Made by a program: the position numbers and the translations under genes. 63,701 nt of DNA from Candidatus Woesearchaeota archaeon (lineage in GTDB: Archaea; Nanobdellota; Nanobdellia; Woesearchaeales; 21-14-0-10-32-9). Numbering within the stretch: the first letter of the stretch is position 1; each line of letters opens with the position of its first letter. Below are positions 7,219 through 36,326 of the stretch, piece by piece. The notes beneath the pieces were generated by a model. It made no database searches. It was not told the origin of the DNA and saw only the letters and a program-made list of their open reading frames with translations. The stretch is taken from the NCBI GenBank assembly GCA_020854775.1, contig JAHKLZ010000019.1:1-63701 (forward strand). Direction: 5' to 3'.

Positions 7219-7251
7219 TGTTGCTTGCTTATAATGGTTGGGGGTGTTTTT

Positions 7252-8226
7252 ATGAAGTTAATTGTTCCTATGGCGCGTAAAAAAATCAAGGATACTTCTA
7301 AATTTATGCCTCCTAGTCCTTTGCTTTGTTTAAGTGGTAAGCCTGTTCTTGTTAGGGTTCTTGAAGTTGTTAAATCTTTAAAGATTTCTGAGGTTATTTT
7401 CATTGTTGATAAAGATGATGTTGATCTTAAGAGGATTGTTTCTAAGAATTTTAAGTTTAAAACAAAGTATATTCTTCAAAGAGATCAGAAAGGTGTTGCT
7501 CACGCGATTTATGGTGCTAAAAAGTTTGTTGGTGATGAGCCTTGTTTGATTTTGTTTGCTGATTCTATTGTTAAGGCTGATTTGAAATCTTTAGATAAGG
7601 TTAAGGCTGATGCGGTTATTTGGACTAAGCAAGTTCATGATCCTAGGGACTTCGGCGTTGTTTTTATTCATAATGGCTCGGTTTCTAGGTTGATTGAGAA
7701 GCCTGATTCTCCTGTTTCTGATTTGGCTATGGTTGGTTTGTATTATTTTAAGAAATCTGATCAATTATTTGAGGCTATTGCTTATTTGATTAAGAATAAG
7801 ATTTTAACTAAAGGTGCTTATCAATTAACGGATGCTCTTCAAATAATGATTAATAAGGGTAACGTGATAGTTAATAGGAATGTTGTTTCTTGGCTTGATT
7901 GTGGGTCTAAGAAAAGATTGTTGGATGCTAATAAGTTTTTGTTGAAAGGTAATAAGTTTTCTTCTAATTCTAAGGATTCTGTTTTTATTAATCCTGTTTT
8001 TATTGGTAAGGGCGCGGTTATTTCTGGTTCGGTTATTGGGCCTAATGTGTCTGTGGGTATGAATGCTAAGATTCATAATTCTGTTGTTAGTAATTCTGTG
8101 ATTTGTGAGGATTCTGTTATTGATAGTAATATTTTGGTTGAAAGTTTTATTGGTCGTGGTTCTAAGATTTATGGTTCTTCTAAAATAGTTAATGTGAGGG
8201 ATCGTGGAGTTGTGCGTGATGAATGA
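7252..8226 (+). CDS. Sugar nucleotidyltransferase with hexapeptide (LbH) domain, divergent active-site loop
   Basis: 324 residues with two domains. Residues 1-215 have the sugar-phosphate nucleotidyltransferase fold (LIVPMA opening, SGKPVLVRVLEVV, LQRDQKGVAHAIYGA, LFADSIVKAD, GVVFIHNGSVSRLIEKP). From about 235 a left-handed beta-helix of hexapeptide repeats follows (VFIGKGAVISGSVIG, VSVGMNAKI). It resembles ADP-glucose/UDP-sugar pyrophosphorylases. The nucleotide-binding loop GxGTR is absent: after VPMA comes RKKIKDTSKF. GGGGGTG five bases before ATG 7252 supports the start; an upstream TTG is less likely. It overlaps the glucosidase gene by eight bases (ATGAATGA), which points to a joint role in glycogen or polysaccharide metabolism. 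Confidence 0.82.
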   Translation: MKLIVPMARKKIKDTSKFMPPSPLLCLSGKPVLVRVLEVVKSLKISEVIFIVDKDDVDLKRIVSKNFKFKTKYILQRDQKGVAHAIYGAKKFVGDEPCLILFADSIVKADLKSLDKVKADAVIWTKQVHDPRDFGVVFIHNGSVSRLIEKPDSPVSDLAMVGLYYFKKSDQLFEAIAYLIKNKILTKGAYQLTDALQIMINKGNVIVNRNVVSWLDCGSKKRLLDANKFLLKGNKFSSNSKDSVFINPVFIGKGAVISGSVIGPNVSVGMNAKIHNSVVSNSVICEDSVIDSNILVESFIGRGSKIYGSSKIVNVRDRGVVRDE

Positions 8227-22173: not shown

Positions 22174-25100
22174 TTAGGTGTTTTTTTTGTTTTTTTTGAT
22201 CATTTTTTTTATTCTGTCGTCGAATTTCTCAAATGGATCAGGCAAGTTCTCTTTTGTGGTTTCTGTTTTTTTTATGGTTGTTTTTATTGGTAATGTAAAG
22301 ATAAATTTTGTTCCTTTTCCATATGTGCTTTCAACTCTTATTGTTCCTCCGTGCGCTTCTATTATTTTTTTGGTTATTGCTAAGCCCAGTCCTGTTCCTC
22401 CGTATCGTCTTGATATTGACGCATCTACTTGGTAGAATTTCTGGAATAAATTATTTATTTTGTCTTTGGGTATGCCTATGCCTGTGTCTTCCACGCTTAT
22501 TTCTACGTTTTTATCTTGTTTCTTTGTTCTTATGGTTATTGTTCCTTTTTCTGTGAATTTTACGGCGTTTGTTAACAAATTGTTTAGAATTTGGTTTAAT
22601 CTTGTGTCGTCCACGTCTATTATTCCTTCGTATCCTAGTTCTAGTTTTAATTTTAGGTCTTTTTGTTTTACTAGTATTTCTAGTTCTTTGGTTGTATTGA
22701 TTATTAGTTCTTTCAATAAAATAGGGGAGGTTGTTAATTCGAATTTTCCTGATTCCATCCTTGATATTTCTAATAAATTGTTAATTAATATTTTTAGTTG
22801 GTCACTGTTTCTTTTTATTGCGTCTAAGCTTTTTAGTTCTTGTTCGTTTAAGCTTGAGTTATAATCACTTATTACTTCTAGGTGTGCATTCATCGCTGTC
22901 AGAGGAGTTTTTAATTCGTGTGATACTATGTTTAAAAATTCTGTTTTTGATTTATCTAATTCTTTTAGTTCTTCGTTCGCGTTTTCTAGGTCTTTGTTTA
23001 ATTTTTTGAAATCGGTTAATATGTGTAGTATTGCTTTCTTTGTTTTTTCTTCCTTTTCTACTTTATTACTTAATTCTTTTGTGTTTTCAATTATTTCTTT
23101 TCTTAGGTGTCTTGTTAAAAAAATATTAAGTATTATTCCTAGTATTAATATGAGTAATATGCTTATTATTGCGAATATTTTTTGAAAATTCATGTATTTA
23201 TTTATGTCGTTTAGTGTTGTCTCTTTGTGTTCTATATTTATGAATTTCCAATCTTTATTTTTTATGTTAAATTCTTTTATTATTGTTATTGATTCTTCTG
23301 TTTTTACATTATCTAAGGAGTTTTGTAGTTGTTCATAAGTTTGTTTATATACTAATATGTCTTGTATGTTTTTTCCTATTTCTTCTTTTTGATTTGAATA
23401 AATAATTACGTTGTTTGAATCTACTAAGTATAATTCTTCGTATAATTTTTCTGTGCCTTCAAGGAATAATTCTGATATTTTATCTAGGTTTATTAAATAA
23501 GCAATTGTTCCATCATATTCTCCATTTCTTATTACAGGTGCGTGTAGAGTTATTCCTTGGAATCCTTCTACTGCTTCAAAAGAATCGCTTAGCACAGGTT
23601 CTAACGTGTTTTTTATTTCTTTCATGTGCTCTTGATAACTTATATCTGCTCCTATTGATCCTTTATCTAAAGGATACATGTTAACTATGTGTCCTGTTTT
23701 ATTTATTCTATAAGATGCGTAGCTTATTTCTTTATTTCTTTGATGAGAAAAATATAATATGTTTTGTGTTTGTTCAGAACCGGGTTCTTCATTAGTTATT
23801 ATTGCTGATACTACTTCTAGATCAATTATTAAGTATTCTAGTTGTTGTTTTATTATTTTAACGTTTTTTTCTAGTAATATGTTGTTGAATTCTATTTTGT
23901 TTTCTATGGTTAAATCTTTTATGTTCTCTGTTGATTGCCAAGAGCTGTATATGAATAGAACAGATATTATTAAGAAAAATAGTACTCCTATGATTATTGT
24001 TGATTTTTGTTTAAACATCATTATTTTTAAGGATATTAAGATTAACCATAAGCTGTAATTTAGTATTATTAAGGAGAATATTAATAAGGGGAAGTCTATT
24101 AAGTTAAATGAGTAGATTGTTCCGTTTATTATTATGATTGTTATTATGATTGTTAGTAAATTTATTAACATGTTTTTTTCTTGTTTGGTTATTTTTATTC
24201 TTTGTTTTAGCATTAGGTAAATCATTGTTGAAATATATGTTGTTAGGACTATTATTAATAGCGGGTAAAGTGTGCCTGTTATTTCTTGTATGTTGTGTTT
24301 ATGCACTATTACGTCTGATATGTATTTGTTTGAGAAAAGTATTATGGTGATTGCTGTTACGTGTATTAAGTACAGCGCTTTCTTAAAATATTTGTTTATT
24401 GCTATTCTCAGTACTTTGAATAATAAGAATATTAGTGTTAGTAAGAGTGTTAAGCTTAATACATGTAATAGTCTTGCTAAAAATAAGGGTTTTATTAAAA
24501 AAGTGGGTGAATAAAATATTTCCATTAGTAAGAATATAAATAAAATGAATGATGTGATGTAATATGTTAAATATTTTTTTGTGTATTCTTTGTCTTTTTT
24601 TATTGGTTTCGATGTTAGGAATATGTATTGTGAGAATATGACTATTATTAATATTAATATGTATATTATGTCTTGGTATGTTATGCTTATGAACTTTGTT
24701 TTTTGTTCTTTTGTTTCTGTAGTAGGTATCCATTCCTTTTTTATTGTTTGGTATGTTCCGTCAGATATTATTTTTGATAGTCCTTCATTTAGTAAGAATA
24801 GTAGTTCTCTGTTTCCTTTTTGTACTGCGAATGTAAAGTCTTGTCTGAAATCATAGAGTGTGAATGCTTTTTCTATGTTTTCTATTTCTAGTTCTTTTAA
24901 TAGTTGTTGTCCTACTAATTCTTGTATTATGATTGCGTCGTGTTTTCCTTGGTTTAGTAATTGGAATGCTTCTGCGAATGTTTCTGTGCACGTTATTTTA
25001 TTTGATATTTTTTCTCTTTTTGCGTATTCTTCTGCGTTGTCTTTGCACATGACTAGTACTTCTTTGTTTTTTAGGTCTTCTAAATTGTTGATTTTTTGAT

Positions 25101-26457
25101 TTGTTCTTGTGAATACTGCTCCGTACAACGTGATGTAGGGTACTGTGAAGTCATATATTTGTTCTCTTTCAGGTGTTCTTCCTACTAGGGGTAGTACTTG
25201 TATTTTTCCTTCTGCTAAATCTTGTTTTATTTCGTTCCATGGTCCTGCGTAGAAACTTACTTCTAATCCTAAAGAATTCATGGTTGCTTTTAGCAGTTCC
25301 ACAGAAAATCCTGTGATTGAGCCATCTTCATTAATAACTGAGAAAGGGGGATAATCATATTCTGTTGCTGATTTTATTATTTTTTGTTTATGTGTTTCTT
25401 GTTCTTCATCTAAGTATATTGTTACTGAGACTGCTAATCCTGCGTCGTCAACTGTTTTTGTTTGTATGATTTTATTATACATGTACTTTGAACGTTTTTC
25501 TCCGTTTGGTTCTATCCATTCATAGTATCCTTTAGCGTCTCGTTTTCCGCTTATTGTATGTTTGGCTATTTCCCAGAATCCAGGAGATGTTTCTTTTAAT
25601 ACATTATAATCTATTCCTTCATATTCAGGGTTATGGTGAAAAATGTTTATCATTGTGTCGTAATCGTAGAGTACTGTGTATCCTTCACCTATTGTTTTTT
25701 GTACGGCTATTTCTCTGAATTTTTCATCTTTTTTTAGTTCTTCTAACGTTTTAGTATTAGTTTCTAAGTACATTTCTATTTGTTTTGTTACTTCGTCTAC
25801 TTTTTGTTCTAACACATTTTTTATTCTATTAGAAAAATCATTTATTGAGTAGTGTTCAACGTATTTTGTTCCTGTTTCTTCATCAACATAATTTGTTACA
25901 ACTATTAACAATTTTTTTCCGTCTTTGGTTTGTTGTTGTATGCAAGTCATGTACAAAAATTTATTTGTTAATTTATTGTCTTCTTCGTACCACTTATAGA
26001 ATCCGTAAACGTCTTTACATGTTCCTAGTACTTCTTGAAACAAAGCCCATATATCTGGGAGATCTTCTTTTAATACAGATAAGTTTTTGTTTATGAGATT
26101 TTTTTGGGGGTGAAAATATATTTGTCCTGTTTCGGCATCTAGCATAGTTGTGTATCCTGTTTCTCCTACTTGTTGTACGGCTATGCTTTGAAATACTTCG
26201 TTTTCTTGTAATTCCTTTATTGTTTCAGGATTATTTTTTAAGTATTCATTTATTTCATAAGCTATGGTTTTGGCTTTAAGTTTTAATTCGAGTTCTTGTA
26301 AATCTTCTATTTCTAGTTCTTGTTCTTCTTGTATTTTGAAAGTCGAAGCAGATATTTTGTTAGAACTTTGTTCTTCTATTAAGATTATAGGTATTAATAT
26401 TATTAAGAAGATTATGCTTAGTGATAACAATCTTTTTTGAGTTTTTTGTTTCATCAT
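22174..26457 (-). CDS. Large multi-sensor histidine kinase (Cache-like, SBP_bac_3, 7TM-like, Cache, HisKA, HATPase)
   Basis: 1427 residues. A TM helix near 10-27 is followed by two related Cache-like units (about 60-200 and 210-355; VGETGYTTMLDAETGQIYFHP in the first). An SBP_bac_3 amino-acid-binding-like domain (about 366-572; EYDYPPFSVINEDGSITGFS) comes next, then a block of 6-8 TM helices (about 589-840). A further extracellular Cache domain spans about 850-1060, followed by a TM helix near 1090-1114 and a coiled coil. The HisKA domain carries the phospho-His in NIVSHELKTPLT (about 1180), and HATPase_c follows (N box NNLLTNAVKF, G1 DTGIGIP, G2 GGTGLGL). It is a complete kinase predicted to sense small molecules at three extracellular modules and to signal to the response regulator downstream. 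Confidence 0.93.
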   Translation of the reverse strand: MMKQKTQKRLLSLSIIFLIILIPIILIEEQSSNKISASTFKIQEEQELEIEDLQELELKLKAKTIAYEINEYLKNNPETIKELQENEVFQSIAVQQVGETGYTTMLDAETGQIYFHPQKNLINKNLSVLKEDLPDIWALFQEVLGTCKDVYGFYKWYEEDNKLTNKFLYMTCIQQQTKDGKKLLIVVTNYVDEETGTKYVEHYSINDFSNRIKNVLEQKVDEVTKQIEMYLETNTKTLEELKKDEKFREIAVQKTIGEGYTVLYDYDTMINIFHHNPEYEGIDYNVLKETSPGFWEIAKHTISGKRDAKGYYEWIEPNGEKRSKYMYNKIIQTKTVDDAGLAVSVTIYLDEEQETHKQKIIKSATEYDYPPFSVINEDGSITGFSVELLKATMNSLGLEVSFYAGPWNEIKQDLAEGKIQVLPLVGRTPEREQIYDFTVPYITLYGAVFTRTNQKINNLEDLKNKEVLVMCKDNAEEYAKREKISNKITCTETFAEAFQLLNQGKHDAIIIQELVGQQLLKELEIENIEKAFTLYDFRQDFTFAVQKGNRELLFLLNEGLSKIISDGTYQTIKKEWIPTTETKEQKTKFISITYQDIIYILILIIVIFSQYIFLTSKPIKKDKEYTKKYLTYYITSFILFIFLLMEIFYSPTFLIKPLFLARLLHVLSLTLLLTLIFLLFKVLRIAINKYFKKALYLIHVTAITIILFSNKYISDVIVHKHNIQEITGTLYPLLIIVLTTYISTMIYLMLKQRIKITKQEKNMLINLLTIIITIIIINGTIYSFNLIDFPLLIFSLIILNYSLWLILISLKIMMFKQKSTIIIGVLFFLIISVLFIYSSWQSTENIKDLTIENKIEFNNILLEKNVKIIKQQLEYLIIDLEVVSAIITNEEPGSEQTQNILYFSHQRNKEISYASYRINKTGHIVNMYPLDKGSIGADISYQEHMKEIKNTLEPVLSDSFEAVEGFQGITLHAPVIRNGEYDGTIAYLINLDKISELFLEGTEKLYEELYLVDSNNVIIYSNQKEEIGKNIQDILVYKQTYEQLQNSLDNVKTEESITIIKEFNIKNKDWKFINIEHKETTLNDINKYMNFQKIFAIISILLILILGIILNIFLTRHLRKEIIENTKELSNKVEKEEKTKKAILHILTDFKKLNKDLENANEELKELDKSKTEFLNIVSHELKTPLTAMNAHLEVISDYNSSLNEQELKSLDAIKRNSDQLKILINNLLEISRMESGKFELTTSPILLKELIINTTKELEILVKQKDLKLKLELGYEGIIDVDDTRLNQILNNLLTNAVKFTEKGTITIRTKKQDKNVEISVEDTGIGIPKDKINNLFQKFYQVDASISRRYGGTGLGLAITKKIIEAHGGTIRVESTYGKGTKFIFTLPIKTTIKKTETTKENLPDPFEKFDDRIKKMIKKNKKNT

Positions 26458-26459
26458 TT

Positions 26460-28700
26460 TTATTTTTTTAATTGTTTTTTTAGTTCTTTGTTTTCTTTTT
26501 CTAGTTCTATCATTTTTAATTCTCTGTCAACAGTAGCGTCTTTAAAATCTTCTAATTCTTTTATGTGTTTTTTTAGTTCGTATTCGTATTCTTTTAAGTT
26601 GGTGATGTCGTATTTCATAGCTATGTAATTTATTATGTTTTTTTCTTCATCGAATAAAGGAGTTATTGTTACCCTTTCAATGTATTCTTCTCCGTTTTTT
26701 CTTTTATTAGTTATTTCTCCTTGCCATATTTTTCCTTCAGATATTGTTCGCCACATTTCTTCGTAGAATTCTTTTGATTGTTTGCCTGATTTGAGTATTT
26801 TAGGATTTTTTCCTAGCACTTCTTTAAGGGCGTATCCTGTAATTTTTTCGAAATAAGGATTTACGTATTCTATGCTTCCATTCACTTTAGTTATAACTAT
26901 GCTTTCTGAAGCTTTTTCTACCATGCTCAAGAATTTTCTTTGTAAATAAATCATGTCTTTTTTTATTTTTTTATCTTGTTCAAGATTCTTTACGAATATT
27001 ATTCCTTTCCACTTCTTTGGATTTTTTTCTAGTATTCCGCAACTTATTTCTGAAAGAAATGTAGTTTTATTTTTTGTTATGAATTCTAGTTGTTGTTTTT
27101 CTGCTTCTGTTTCTAAACAAGTTTTTCTTAAGAATTTGTAAAATGTTTTTTTGTTTTTTAAATTCAGTATTTTTGTTAAGAATATGTTTTTTTCTTTTAA
27201 TTCATTTTCTTCGTATTTTAACCATTTTATTAGTCTGTTGTTTAATTCTAGGATTTTTCCTTTTCCATTTATGAGAATTATTCCTTCAGGGGAATTGTTA
27301 AAAATGTTTTCGAATTTTTTTTCGCTTGCTTCTAATGATTCTTCTGTTATTTTTTTCTCTATTAAATTAGATAAGAACTCAGTTATTAGTTTCAGTATGA
27401 ATATTTGTTCTTTTGTGAATTCATGTTTTTTATTAACTGAGTCTAGTCCTAGGAATCCGTATATTTCTTCATATTTGTTTATTATTGGAACGCATATTAA
27501 TGATTTTATTTGTTGTTTTTTGAATATTTTTTTTTCTTTTCTTGCTTGCAGAGGTAATTTGTCAACATCTTTTATGTTTGTTGGTTGTTTTGTTTTTATT
27601 TTTTTGAGCCACCAGGGCATGGTGCTTGTTTTTATATTTTGTAATTTGTTTATTTGTGGTTTTGTTTGTTTATTGTACCATTCGTGAGTATTTGTCATAT
27701 AAGTCATGTCTTTGTTGAATCTGAAAATGTAGCTTCTGTCCATGTTTAGGCTTTTTCCTAGATTTGTTAATGTTGTGTTTATTGTTTTATCAAAATCTTT
27801 TAGTGTTGTTTTTACGTACTTAGAAGTTATGTTAATAGCTGTTTTTTGTAGTTCTATTTGTTTTTTCTTTTCTTCTTCGCTTTTTTTTAGTTGTTCTTGT
27901 GTTTTGTGTTTTTCTGTTTCATCTATTATTGTGCATATCATTCCGTCATATTTTTTGTTTTTTGTTTTTGGTATTAGCCATCCTGTTTGGTAAGTTTCTT
28001 TTTTTGGGGTTATAACAAGCGCTTCATAGTATTGTGGTTTTAGTGTTTTTTTTGCTTTTTTGTAGTAGGGTAAGAATTCTTTTGTTGTTTTTTCAGGAAA
28101 ATCTTTTATTATATGTAGTCCTATTGCTTTTGTTGTTGTTACATCGCTTATTTTTTCCATTCCTTCGCTAAAAAAAATTATTTTGTCTTCTTTATTTGTT
28201 ACCCATATTCCTTCTTTTAGTGTGGAAATTGTTTCTTCGTAGAATTGTTTTGTTTTCTCAAGTTCTTGTTTTGTTTTTTCTTGTTCTGTTATGTCTTGAT
28301 TTACTACTATCGCGCCTAATAATTTTTTTTTATTCATTATTGGTGCTGTGTAATTTGATATTATTTTAGTTTTACCATCGAACGCGTCTATTTCTATTAA
28401 TTCGTTTGTGATTGTTTTTTTTTGTGTTATTGTTTTGTATAATGCCCATTCTTTTGGTTTTATTTCTTTTCCTGTGGGGTGATGTCTTGCTTTGAAAACT
28501 CCGTATTCTGATGGTGGAACTTTTGGTTCGGCTCCCCATATTTTTATGCCTGCAGGATTTCCTTTTATTAGTTTTCCTTTTTCGTCTGCGTACCACAAAC
28601 CCAGAGGTATTATTTCGAATATTTTGTTTAGCGTTTTATCTGTTAATTCATAACTTTTTAGTTTCTCATCTTCATTCAGGTTTTTTTTGGTTTTTTTCAT
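26460..28700 (-). CDS. Multi-PAS/GAF sensor protein without kinase domain
   Basis: 746 residues, soluble. The order is PAS (about 22-135; LGLWYADEKGKLIKGN), PAS (about 150-265; GIWVTNKEDKIIFFSEG), GAF (about 285-450; SYIFRFNKDM, KSLICVPIINKYEEIYGFLG), PAS (about 465-585; EGIILINGKGKILELNN) and PAS plus PAC (about 590-705; GSIEYVNPYFEKITGYALKE, then TPLFDEEKNIINYIAMKYDIT). It ends in a coiled coil with RELKMIELEKEN, a segment that normally precedes HisKA in archaeal kinases, but no kinase follows. The stop is two bases from the start of the giant kinase gene, so it may act as a separate input subunit of that kinase. Confidence 0.9.
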   Translation of the reverse strand: MKKTKKNLNEDEKLKSYELTDKTLNKIFEIIPLGLWYADEKGKLIKGNPAGIKIWGAEPKVPPSEYGVFKARHHPTGKEIKPKEWALYKTITQKKTITNELIEIDAFDGKTKIISNYTAPIMNKKKLLGAIVVNQDITEQEKTKQELEKTKQFYEETISTLKEGIWVTNKEDKIIFFSEGMEKISDVTTTKAIGLHIIKDFPEKTTKEFLPYYKKAKKTLKPQYYEALVITPKKETYQTGWLIPKTKNKKYDGMICTIIDETEKHKTQEQLKKSEEEKKKQIELQKTAINITSKYVKTTLKDFDKTINTTLTNLGKSLNMDRSYIFRFNKDMTYMTNTHEWYNKQTKPQINKLQNIKTSTMPWWLKKIKTKQPTNIKDVDKLPLQARKEKKIFKKQQIKSLICVPIINKYEEIYGFLGLDSVNKKHEFTKEQIFILKLITEFLSNLIEKKITEESLEASEKKFENIFNNSPEGIILINGKGKILELNNRLIKWLKYEENELKEKNIFLTKILNLKNKKTFYKFLRKTCLETEAEKQQLEFITKNKTTFLSEISCGILEKNPKKWKGIIFVKNLEQDKKIKKDMIYLQRKFLSMVEKASESIVITKVNGSIEYVNPYFEKITGYALKEVLGKNPKILKSGKQSKEFYEEMWRTISEGKIWQGEITNKRKNGEEYIERVTITPLFDEEKNIINYIAMKYDITNLKEYEYELKKHIKELEDFKDATVDRELKMIELEKENKELKKQLKK

Positions 28701-32125: not shown

Positions 32126-32647
32126 ATGTGGCTTACTAAAAATGAAAAAGCAGTTCTAAATTTACTTTTAGATGATGCTAACATCTCAGACATTTTTATA
32201 GCTGAGAAACTTAAGATTTCTAGTCAAGCAGTAGGACGTATAAAAAAGCGCCTCGAAAAAGACATAATAAGAGGCTACACAATTAATTTAAATTCTAAAC
32301 TTTTAGGGGTTAACATCGTCGCGTTATTTAAAATTTCGTTTAATCAATCAATTGAAAACTTCGATGTTTCTTCATTGGAAAAAAAACTTAAAGAACTGCC
32401 TGAGGTAACTATGATGTTTAAAACATTATCTGGTAGTCATGACTATATTTTTCTTGCATCTTTTTCTAACCTGGATGACTTGGAGAAATTTGTAACTGAG
32501 AAACGTAATGGTAAGCCTTTTGATTCTTTTTTTATTATTAAAGAATTAATCGCGTTACCTAATAGTTGTGTTTTGAAAAAGTCTGAGAAAAATCTTCTTA
32601 AGAAGATGATTGATGATTGCAGAACTAAATCCGCGGATTTTAAATAA
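32126..32647 (+). CDS. Lrp/AsnC family transcriptional regulator
   Basis: About 173 residues. The HTH spans residues 1-50 (KNEKAVLNLLLDDANISDIF, KISSQAVGRIKKRLEKD) and joins through GYTINLNSKLLG, a typical Lrp linker, to a RAM-like ligand domain (VNIVALFKISF, TMMFKTLSGSHDYIFLASF). An in-frame ATG nine bases upstream is a possible start; I prefer the second because the upstream one directly abuts the GGG that could serve as ribosome site. A TATA box AAATTTATAAACA lies near 32057-32068. The stop abuts the stop of the convergent fusion gene at 32648. Confidence 0.85.
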   Translation: MWLTKNEKAVLNLLLDDANISDIFIAEKLKISSQAVGRIKKRLEKDIIRGYTINLNSKLLGVNIVALFKISFNQSIENFDVSSLEKKLKELPEVTMMFKTLSGSHDYIFLASFSNLDDLEKFVTEKRNGKPFDSFFIIKELIALPNSCVLKKSEKNLLKKMIDDCRTKSADFK

Positions 32648-35449
32648 TCATAAATTAGAAGTTATGTTTATGATTTTGTTTAAAGAATCTCCTTTTTCTA
32701 ATGAGAATATGAGTGTGTTAGCGCCTTCTTCTTTCGCTATTCTCAGATCTTTTTCGTAGTTGTCTCCTATGAATAAGCATTCATTAGCACTTACGTCTAA
32801 TTCTTTCAGTACTAATTCAATGTATTTTTTGTTTGGTTTCATTGTTCTTACGTCTTCGCTGCATATTACGCTGTCAAAGAAGCTTCGTAGTCTAAATTTG
32901 TTTAACTTAGCTGTTAATAAGTCTTTTGAGTCCTCAGTGACTAAGGCTATTTTGTAATCGCTTAGCACAGGAATCACTTCTTTGAATCCAGGACTTAATA
33001 CTAAGTTCTTAATGAGTGTTTCTTTGAATAAAGAATAGCCTTTTTCTACGTTATTAAATCCTAGTTTTTTTGATAATAATTCGTATGAATATGTTCTTTT
33101 TCGTTTCTTAGGATTTTTTTCTTTTATTAATTCTGATACTATTTTTTTCCATTCATTGTATAAGAGTTCAGGATTTTTTTTGATTTGTTTCGCGAAGAAC
33201 TTCATCGCTGACATATCCGCGTTTTTAGCACTTGACTTGGTTTGATAAATAGTGTTATCAGCATCAAATATTATTGCTCTTAACAATAAGTCTTTAACGA
33301 TGTTATTTTTTACGGTTTTGTTTGGAAAAATCATTCTACCTGGTTCACTGCATAAATTATTTTTTATTACGCAGTCAGAAGCGCAGAATAATCCTAATTC
33401 GTTTTTTCCAGAAGGTACATATTTGTCTTTACAGTAAACTTCCACGTTTTGTTTCTTAACTTTTGTATAAAAGTTCTTACCGATGATTGTGTTTTTTCCT
33501 ATTACGCTACTTATTATCTTAGAGTTTTCTCCTATTTTCACGTTTTTATTTATTACTGATTTTGATATGGTGCAATTGTTATTTATGGTTCCTTCAATAG
33601 CGCTGTAATTATTTATTACTACGTTATTCTTTATTTCTGCGTCTTTTCCTATAAAAACACCTTTTCCTATCTTAACGTTTTTCCCTATTTTTTTACTTAA
33701 TATGATTGTTCCAAATTTCTTCGCGAATAATTTATGAGCTTCTAATATGTTCCACGCTCTACCCACATCTACTCTTTCTCCTTTGAATATCCAATACGAA
33801 GCTTTTCCTTTCTTTCTCAAAACGTATTCGGCAGGAGGTAGTACTTCTTCAATACCTATTTCATCTACTGCTTTAAAGAATAAAGATCCATTAACTAATA
33901 CTAAGCCCACGTTTGCTAGGTTTGATGGAAAATTCTTTTTTGGCTTCTCAACTATTTGTACTAATTCATCATTTTTGAATTTGGCAATCCCGTATTCTTC
34001 AGGTTTCTTAACTTTTCTTAACGTAACGACACAATCAACCCCTGGTTCTTGATTAAACTTATCTAACAATTCTTGTGTTTGATCCGTTGAAGCTATGCTA
34101 TCACCGTACTTAACCAAGAAATAATCATTTTCAAGAAAAGAACGTGCACAAAGCAAAGCATTAACAGGTCCTTTTTGTTCTGTTTGCAAAAAGAACTTAA
34201 AACTCACATTCTTAACGGATCCATTTCTTTTTTTTAGCTCAGAAACATATTCTGTGTTCACATAATTTCTTATGTCATTAATATTTTCGTTATTACAAAT
34301 AAAAACAATATCTTCTATTCCGTTACTAATCATTTCATCAGCGTGATGAGCTATTAAAGGCTTACCATAGAAACGAATCATTTCCTTAGATTCCTTGATA
34401 GAAAAAGGTTTCATCCGGCTTCCTTTCCCTGCAACTAATATTGCTCCTTTAACTTTTTTTCTTGCTAATCCAATAATTGAATTAGCTAACTTCTTAGAAT
34501 CATGCCTTATATACAAAGGCTTACCATATTCTTCTTCTGCTTCCTCTTGTATTAAGTCATTAACAACGACTTTCTTAACTATTTTAGAAATCTTATTTAT
34601 CTGCTCATCGCTCACAAACAAATACTTAGAACCCGCGTTTTCATATCTTTTAATAAGTTTTTTCTCAGGAGGCTTACCATTAACAACTACGAAGTCCAAA
34701 ACGTTTTTTCCTAAGTACTTCTCTATTTCTTTAACGTGCATGAATAAATCAAAATCATCAGTTACGCCTATTTGAGTAGCTGCGTTAACAACATAAATCT
34801 TTCTAGCTTTAGAATTCTTAATAGCTTCAACCATTCCTTTAGGTAATAAATTAACAATAACAGAAGTGTATAAACCTCCAGGTCCTACAACTATTAAATC
34901 TGCGTCTTTTATTTCTGAAACGCATTCAGGATTAACCTTGGCATTCTTATTTTTTAAAAACAAATTAGTTATTCTTTTTTTTGAATCGTAACTCCTAGAA
35001 ATACTTGCTTCTCCTTCCAATATTTTTCCATTACTTAATACTGCACAGACATGAGTGTTACTAAGCGTGCTAGGAAGAACTTTTCCATCTATTTTAAGAA
35101 TCTTAGAAGCATCCCTTATCGCCTTAGAAAAATCATTATTGTTAAGCTTCGTAAGCGCGGTTATTAGTAAATTCCCGAAATTCATTCCGTGATAAGAAGA
35201 ATCATTTTTTTCAGATTCAAATCTGAATTTGAACAAATCCTTCATTAACTTAGGAGAATTTGACAAAGAAACCATACAATTTCTTAAATCTCCAGGTGCT
35301 AATATGTCGAATTCATCCCTTAAAACACCTGTGCTCCTACCACTATCAGTAACAGCTACTATCGCCGTCAAATCAGAAGTATACCTTCTAAGACCTGACA
35401 ACAAAACACTTTGCCCTGTGCCGCCCCCGATGCACACAATTTTAACCAT
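32648..35449 (-). CDS. Three-domain fusion: YvcK/CofD-fold + sugar nucleotidyltransferase-LbH + HAD phosphatase
   Basis: 933 residues in one uninterrupted frame. Residues 1-315 are YvcK-like (VKIVCIGGGTGQSVLLSGL, VTDSGRSTGVLRDEF, PGDLRNCMVSLS, YHGMNFGNLLITAL), a UDP-sugar-binding fold related to CofD. Residues 333-570 are a nucleotidyltransferase with an intact loop (ILVAGKGSRMKPFS, YGKPLIAHHAD, FFLQTEQKGPVNALLCA, YGDSIASTD). Residues 576-670 are hexapeptide beta-helix. Residues 725-933 are a HAD hydrolase (AIIFDADNTIYQT, LVTEDSKD, CLFIGDNYEKDLRIAKEEGA). It likely makes or controls a nucleotide sugar and removes a phosphate in the same route. Whether the YvcK part is catalytic or regulatory is open. 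Confidence 0.88.
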   Translation of the reverse strand: MVKIVCIGGGTGQSVLLSGLRRYTSDLTAIVAVTDSGRSTGVLRDEFDILAPGDLRNCMVSLSNSPKLMKDLFKFRFESEKNDSSYHGMNFGNLLITALTKLNNNDFSKAIRDASKILKIDGKVLPSTLSNTHVCAVLSNGKILEGEASISRSYDSKKRITNLFLKNKNAKVNPECVSEIKDADLIVVGPGGLYTSVIVNLLPKGMVEAIKNSKARKIYVVNAATQIGVTDDFDLFMHVKEIEKYLGKNVLDFVVVNGKPPEKKLIKRYENAGSKYLFVSDEQINKISKIVKKVVVNDLIQEEAEEEYGKPLYIRHDSKKLANSIIGLARKKVKGAILVAGKGSRMKPFSIKESKEMIRFYGKPLIAHHADEMISNGIEDIVFICNNENINDIRNYVNTEYVSELKKRNGSVKNVSFKFFLQTEQKGPVNALLCARSFLENDYFLVKYGDSIASTDQTQELLDKFNQEPGVDCVVTLRKVKKPEEYGIAKFKNDELVQIVEKPKKNFPSNLANVGLVLVNGSLFFKAVDEIGIEEVLPPAEYVLRKKGKASYWIFKGERVDVGRAWNILEAHKLFAKKFGTIILSKKIGKNVKIGKGVFIGKDAEIKNNVVINNYSAIEGTINNNCTISKSVINKNVKIGENSKIISSVIGKNTIIGKNFYTKVKKQNVEVYCKDKYVPSGKNELGLFCASDCVIKNNLCSEPGRMIFPNKTVKNNIVKDLLLRAIIFDADNTIYQTKSSAKNADMSAMKFFAKQIKKNPELLYNEWKKIVSELIKEKNPKKRKRTYSYELLSKKLGFNNVEKGYSLFKETLIKNLVLSPGFKEVIPVLSDYKIALVTEDSKDLLTAKLNKFRLRSFFDSVICSEDVRTMKPNKKYIELVLKELDVSANECLFIGDNYEKDLRIAKEEGANTLIFSLEKGDSLNKIINITSNL

Positions 35450-35561: not shown

Positions 35562-36326
35562 ATGATTAATTTTAGGGGTAAGAGGGCTCAAATAACTATT
35601 TTTGTTATTCTAGGAATTTTATTAGTTGTTGGATTAGTTTTGTTTCTTTCTTTGAGAAAAACTGATTCTTCGGTTGATTTTACTGGGCAAGCTGATTTAA
35701 ACGCTGTTTTGGCTAATATTAATAGTTATTCTACTAATTGTTTTGATAATGTTGTTGATAAAAGTGTTAAAGATGTTTTGTTACAGGGAGGATATTATGA
35801 TTTAAGTGAAGTGAATCATGAATTGATTGGTTCTTTTTCTATTCCTTATTATTTTAAGGACTACACAAAGATCGTGCCTTCTGAGGAAAGAGTTCTTGAA
35901 TCTATAAGGTTAATGATTATTGATAACTTTGATTCTTGTGTTGATGATTATTCGGCTTTTGATGATTTTGATATTGAAATCGTTAAACAAAGTACTTCTG
36001 CAAATATTGAATCTGATAACGGTTTATTAATATCTTTAAATCCTAATTTAGTCGTTGTTAAAAATGATTTATCTATTGATGTTGAGGGTTTAACAAAATT
36101 CGTTGTGTTAGATGTTAATTCTTTGCTTTTGGCTGCTGAAGAAATTATTGATTCGCATATTGGTTTTGATCAAGGTTATGTTAGTTTGACTAGGATTTCC
36201 GCAGCGGTTAATAATCACGGATTGTTTTTTAATGCTTTAAGTTATGAGGATAGTGTTGTTTTATTATTGAAAAATAGTGTTGATTCAAGTAACGTATTAG
36301 TTTTTATGTTTGAGTTAAATAATTAA
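35562..36326 (+). CDS. Secreted protein with class III (pilin-like) signal anchor
   Basis: 254 residues. The N-terminus FRGKRAQITIFVILGILLVV is the KRxQxTIF pattern used by archaeal type IV pilin-like proteins: a short basic leader, a processing site before QITIF, and a hydrophobic helix that can polymerise or anchor. The remaining ~220 residues are exported, acidic, with two Cys and alternating strands. I do not recognise the domain. It is 25 bases upstream of another exported protein (36352-39060); the two probably act together on the cell surface. Confidence 0.75.
   Translation: MINFRGKRAQITIFVILGILLVVGLVLFLSLRKTDSSVDFTGQADLNAVLANINSYSTNCFDNVVDKSVKDVLLQGGYYDLSEVNHELIGSFSIPYYFKDYTKIVPSEERVLESIRLMIIDNFDSCVDDYSAFDDFDIEIVKQSTSANIESDNGLLISLNPNLVVVKNDLSIDVEGLTKFVVLDVNSLLLAAEEIIDSHIGFDQGYVSLTRISAAVNNHGLFFNALSYEDSVVLLLKNSVDSSNVLVFMFELNN

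Follow-up and report, generated by a model that had tools for sequence, protein, structure and literature searches.

The fusion gene and its domains

The locus raises the question of what a sugar nucleotidyltransferase (NT) and a HAD phosphatase do on one archaeal polypeptide together with a YvcK/GlmR domain. It lies in the window, by which we mean the whole analysed stretch of 63,701 nucleotides from a Candidatus Woesearchaeota archaeon, whose genome (G000) has a size of 1.18 Mb and an estimated completeness of 100%. The gene occupies positions 32648..35449 on the minus strand and encodes 933 amino acids (aa) in a single unbroken ATG frame. It is a stand-alone gene, flanked by a divergent gene starting at 35562 and by an Lrp-like gene on the opposite strand ending at 32647, and no further YvcK/CofD gene was found in a search of the whole G000 genome.

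The sequence-only reading of this frame had placed three domains in it, and all of them were recovered by Pfam/NCBIfam matches, as well as in a second full-length copy in another genome (G462). The matches cover aa 4–328 for YvcK/CofD (PF01933, 300 bits), aa 334–575 for NTP_transferase (PF00483, 103 bits), about aa 587–660 for hexapeptide repeats (PF00132) and about aa 723–918 for HAD (PF13419, 77 bits; PF00702). All three domains belong to known families or are closely related to them, while the architecture is a new arrangement; no description of it, or of the related archaeal/CPR gene set, was found in the open-access literature.

Nucleotidyltransferase and beta-helix

The NT core comprises aa 331–575 (33725..34459, minus strand), and the alignment places its nucleotide-binding loop GKGSR, read as intact from the outset, at aa 341–345 (34415..34429, minus strand). 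The catalytic residues G341-K-G-S-R345, K355, Q422, D450, E501-K502 and D561 are all present and conserved throughout the fused clade, so that the complete residue set of archaeal GlmU (GxGxR, K, Q, D, EKP and a second D) is found here, with a TIGR03992 score of 153.6 bits against a cut-off of 292. The Q-x-E-Q-x-G and YGD motifs, which we take to resemble those of GlmU, favor a uracil or thymine nucleotide; the NT residues do not separate with certainty UTP from dTTP, or GlcNAc-1-P from Glc-1-P.

In a model of the NT-beta-helix-HAD part (mean pLDDT 91), the closest PDB folds were those of the archaeal bifunctional GlmU ST0452 (TIGR03992; 2ggo, 5z09, 5z0a; TMt 0.72–0.76), of which some were solved with UTP or GlcNAc. 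The fusion shares with ST0452 the combination of NT and left-handed beta-helix and the NT catalytic residues, but differs from it by a shortened helix, the sub-cut-off score, the fusion itself and the loss of the acetyltransferase residues. The helix extends over about aa 586–710 (33320..33694, minus strand), and at the site of the catalytic His and Tyr of GlmU-type acetyltransferases (aa 640–651; 33497..33532, minus strand) it reads GENSKIISSVIG. Unfused GlmU-type relatives retain His, Tyr and Asn (GHFSYIGDSVIG...ANRR in L124), whereas all six fused proteins with a beta-helix have lost them and carry E/K/V at these columns. The acetyltransferase roles of the three residues are presumed from work on GlmU and from the alignment to the unfused proteins. 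To judge from these columns, the beta-helix noted by the sequence-only reading is present, but it is not an active acetyltransferase domain and, with those residues gone, would now be only structural.

A different condition was observed in a group of GlmU-like proteins encoded beside HAD and glmS/GlmM/yvcK (L158, L160, L163, L164, L167, L168 (1339–2550) and L134): acetyltransferase His and Asn are kept, the metal-binding Asp of the NT is missing, and these proteins are possibly acetyltransferase-only enzymes. The window encodes a second NT (7225–8226, plus strand; likely start at the ATG near 7255), which had been said to lack the loop and does so, reading MKLIVPMARKKIKD against MAGRGTRLRPFT in a same-genus relative (G249). 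The GxGxR loop is likewise not intact in the family member from G086. Since this gene adjoins one for a glycogen debranching enzyme, it may encode a GalF-like non-catalytic NT. Elsewhere in the window, a histidine kinase of 1427 aa, which carries the sensor domains SBP_bac_3 and dCache (22174–26457, minus strand) and is unusual in a DPANN genome of 1.2 Mb, is encoded next to a PAS/GAF protein (26460–28700).

Split gene sets in relatives

The same parts are encoded as neighboring genes in many relatives. In the Woesearchaeota genome G393 (CALCXY010000117.1, L132/L153), genes for YvcK, NT-HAD, GlmS, a GNAT acetyltransferase and a further HAD follow each other in one direction, and the yvcK and NT-HAD frames overlap by ATGA exactly where the window gene is fused. 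A micrarchaeon (L164) has overlapping genes in the fused order, glmS-yvcK-NT-HAD, and other arrangements included NT-yvcK-HAD in two Colwellbacteria (CPR; L159, L160), GlmM-NT-HAD in Nanoarchaeia (L157), glmS-GlmM-NT-HAD in Aenigmatarchaeota (L158) and NT-HAD-GlmM in Nanohalarchaeota (L167). Other fusions of the same parts were HAD-YvcK (L074, L075) and an NT-HAD adjoining YvcK (L122). The neighbors were assigned by NCBIfam as GlmS (c3, 796 bits) and as GlmM-type (c17, 365 bits, below the cut-off of 439), and by Pfam as GNAT; from its gene position, the latter may be a GNA1-like glucosamine-6-phosphate acetyltransferase.

An NT was encoded on the same strand at a distance of up to 3.5 kb at 38 of the phylum's 69 YvcK loci (fused copies counted), a HAD at 41 and glmS at 16; NT and HAD were both present at 34 loci and at least one of the partners at 47. 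When ORFs near to and far from YvcK on the same stretches were compared, NT made up 38/592 vs 2/362 (Fisher p 1.3e-6), HAD 40/592 vs 4/362 (p 2e-5) and glmS 16/592 vs 0/362 (p 9e-4), values which overstate independence because many of the YvcK loci come from one family (f9). The link of NT to YvcK was found in nine families (f4, f9, f15, f16, f50, f54, f92, f103, f111) and also outside the phylum. The glmS, GNAT, GlmM, NT and HAD neighbors indicate that the module belongs to UDP-GlcNAc synthesis, which sharpens the general nucleotide-sugar role first suggested. In the family f2, two-part NT-HAD fusions (L137 5839–7209, L138, L136) adjoin a gene for an AP_endonuc_2 TIM-barrel protein and not glmS, with a PAP2 phosphatase also beside the fusion in L137.

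Pathway reading and the product in G000

We consider it probable, at roughly 0.6, that the window gene arose by fusion of a conserved gene set of the UDP-GlcNAc pathway, with a GlmU-type NT, a UDP-sugar sensor acting in cis and a phosphatase of the same pathway on one chain. The NT would convert UTP and a sugar-1-phosphate, ancestrally GlcNAc-1-P, to UDP-GlcNAc and pyrophosphate, acetylation being probably an earlier step performed in the relatives by GNAT. The YvcK/GlmR domain would bind the product UDP-sugar and act in cis as the feedback sensor of the pathway, and the HAD would hydrolyze a phosphate of the same pathway, most likely hexosamine phosphate or UMP, either as a relief valve or as a by-product remover.

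The sequence-only reading had gone further and seen a self-contained branch point, which was not supported: GlmS, UDP-GlcNAc 2-epimerase (PF02350) and a GlcNAc-1-P transferase of PF00953 were all missing in searches of the G000 genome, as was any SIS-domain isomerase scoring above cut-off, and the single GlmM-type phosphohexomutase is encoded by a separate gene. GlmS is absent from four of the six genomes with an NT-HAD fusion (G000, G037, G377, G311), two of them less than 90% complete. It follows that G000 may make a product other than UDP-GlcNAc, that the sensor lacks a classical target there and would have to work in cis or through a different partner, and that GlcNAc-1-P would have to be salvaged unless the product is UDP-glucose or another hexose derivative.

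This last option leads to the most serious competitor, in which the G000 enzyme makes UDP-glucose (or a dTDP/UDP-hexose) sensed by YvcK, UDP-GlcNAc being only the ancestral product. The missing glmS in the four genomes agrees with it, as do the one GlmM-type phosphohexomutase, the glycogen debranching enzyme encoded in the window and the binding of UDP-Glc by B. subtilis YvcK (PMC5482804). We nevertheless regard it as rather less probable, because GlmS, GNAT and GlmM are the operon partners in relatives, the closest fold, ST0452, was solved with GlcNAc, and G462, with the same full fusion, possesses both GlmS and UDP-GlcNAc 2-epimerase.

YvcK/GlmR domain

The sensor proposed in the UDP-GlcNAc-pathway reading comprises aa 1–330 (34460..35449, minus strand) and scored 306 bits with TIGR01826, the family of the Gram-positive UDP-GlcNAc-binding checkpoint protein YvcK/GlmR, against a cut-off of 196. 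In a full-chain model (mean pLDDT 76), this part matched B. halodurans YvcK (2hzb/2o2z) with TMt 0.94–0.96, but CofD/FbiA (2-phospho-L-lactate transferase), with which it shares the superfamily fold, only with 0.60–0.68. The archaeal glmR homologue has been described as CofD (PMC7525490); for the window protein, a member of the YvcK subfamily, this identity was rejected, as TIGR01819 was not among the best 25 models (thus below 41 bits, cut-off 257) and the fold is nearer to YvcK.

In B. subtilis GlmR, the residues T14, N218, Y265 and R301 were tested for UDP-GlcNAc binding (PMC5482804), and the alignment shows that they are kept in the fusion as T11, N222, Y269 (34643..34645) and R315 (34505..34507, both on the minus strand); N, Y and R were each present in 70 of the 73 YvcKs compared. 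The domain is therefore likely to be a UDP-sugar sensor, as was first suggested. The catalytic Asp pair, in contrast, is incomplete: the position of B. subtilis D38-D39 (PMC13046274, PMC10128056) is taken by D35-S36 (35342..35347, minus strand), so that the first Asp, together with N200, is retained and the second is replaced by Ser. The second Asp was found in only 36 of the 73 archaeal/CPR YvcK members, and Asn stands at this position in G462 as well as in S. epidermidis YvcK (2ppv).

GlmR of Listeria, S. aureus and B. subtilis forms UDP-GlcNAc from UTP and GlcNAc-1-P (PMC10128056). A second uridylyltransferase, rather than mainly a sensor, could hence be suspected in the YvcK domain, and the retained D35 and N200 would fit; however, B. 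subtilis GlmR requires both consecutive Asp (PMC13046274), the second of which is replaced here by Ser and in G462 by Asn, and the same chain already carries an intact NT, which makes such a function unlikely. Compensation by YvcK for partners with a dead NT was also considered but found no support, since the YvcKs beside such NTs lack the second Asp as well.

Gram-positive GlmR makes UDP-GlcNAc-dependent contacts with GlmS and YvcJ (PMC7525490). Fold, family score, UDP-sugar-binding residues and a link to glmS, functional in GlmR and genomic in the relatives of the fusion, are thus common to both, whereas the window domain is fused to NT and HAD, belongs to an archaeal host whose genome has no glmS, and has its second catalytic Asp replaced. 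Other traits of bacterial GlmR are the stimulation of GlmS and a genomic association with yvcJ/rapZ. Among other YvcKs, those of family f18 (L073, L080, L084, L139) were 425–430 aa long, being extended at the N-terminus by about 115 aa. The extension tested, that of L080, gave no Pfam match; the start of a further f18 copy (L133) looks membrane-spanning.

HAD domain

The HAD phosphatase domain, correctly placed next to the NT by the sequence-only reading, comprises aa 722–920 (32690..33286, minus strand) and has its motifs intact: DADNT, T838 (TED), K871 and GDNYEKD correspond to the DxDxT, S/T, K and GDxxxD of HAD hydrolases. Four motifs and the overall fold are shared with HAD IA hydrolases (TIGR02253/PH0459/YjjG/N-acylneuraminate-9-phosphatase), but the fused HAD remains below the subfamily cut-off (TIGR02253, 99.8 bits against 169.75) and falls within a clade with the signature FDADNTLY, tied to NT and UDP-GlcNAc genes. 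Many HADs of f9 operons seemed to have lost motif I, but in the three cases inspected this was due to wrongly called start codons.

Some operon HADs (L111) weakly resemble beta-PGM, and the fused HAD has a weak similarity to the model of the pyrophosphatase PpaX, which would suit a beta-PGM-like phosphosugar mutase or a pyrophosphatase feeding or driving the NT instead of a phosphatase for small by-products. Such a role is improbable, as the fused HAD best matches hydrolases of the TIGR02253/YjjG/NANP type and a GlmM-type mutase is already encoded in G000. An assignment of this HAD phosphatase to the UDP-GlcNAc pathway was not found in the open-access papers searched.

Reality and history of the fusion

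The second full-length fusion was the only further one among 353 genomes of the order. It belongs to another Woesearchaeota family (G462), consists of 941 aa and shares 62% identity with the window protein over aa 1–922. The alignment has no gap at either junction, with ARKKVKGAILVAGKG / PRKKVKGVILVAGKG at one and LLLRAIIFDADNTIY in both proteins at the other, and the two proteins group together as sisters in each of the domain trees for YvcK, NT and HAD (support 0.994–1.0); around the gene there is no synteny between G000 and G462. An assembly or sequencing artefact by a missing stop codon, to which the lack of the fusion in same-family genomes might have pointed, is refuted by this independent genome with the same architecture and ungapped junctions, and the three-domain fusion is real. 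Absent junctions in homologues together with a missing stop codon here, or lost catalytic residues in two of the three domains, either of which would have spoken against the sequence-only reading, were thus not encountered: the junctions recur in the second genome, and those residues are conserved in NT and HAD.

The search for the same domain order in other DPANN genomes also produced four Woesearchaeota (G311, G393, G037, G377) in which a two-part NT-beta-helix-HAD fusion measures about 595 aa and YvcK is encoded apart, and the closest named relatives with NT-HAD fusions are Candidatus Woesearchaeota. The six fused NTs formed one clade (support 0.996) and so did the six fused HADs (support 0.957), indicating that NT and HAD were joined first and YvcK later. 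YvcK and NT-HAD are absent from ten other genomes of the family of G000, so that loss or transfer shaped the distribution; gene GC and GC3 are ordinary for the window and give no sign of recent transfer, which is therefore suggested only by this absence. An alignment-based contig scan detected 57 loci, while the same scan with a single protein as the query gave no match, and the viral contigs scanned contained nothing but generic NT matches.

Implications

GlmR has been noted in some archaea, and its action outside Gram-positive bacteria is little known (PMC13046274). Taken together, the fusion and the operons with split genes link YvcK of archaea and CPR bacteria directly with UDP-GlcNAc enzymes, and likewise with a HAD phosphatase. 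More tentatively, the window protein might be a self-regulated UDP-sugar synthase, in which GlmR, thought to act on GlmS in bacteria, would gate, in cis, both uridylyltransferase and phosphatase, the organism having no GlmS; and the glmS-glmR-NT-HAD module common to DPANN archaea and CPR bacteria might control amino-sugar supply. With both on one polypeptide, the coupling of sensor and enzyme can be tested in vitro.
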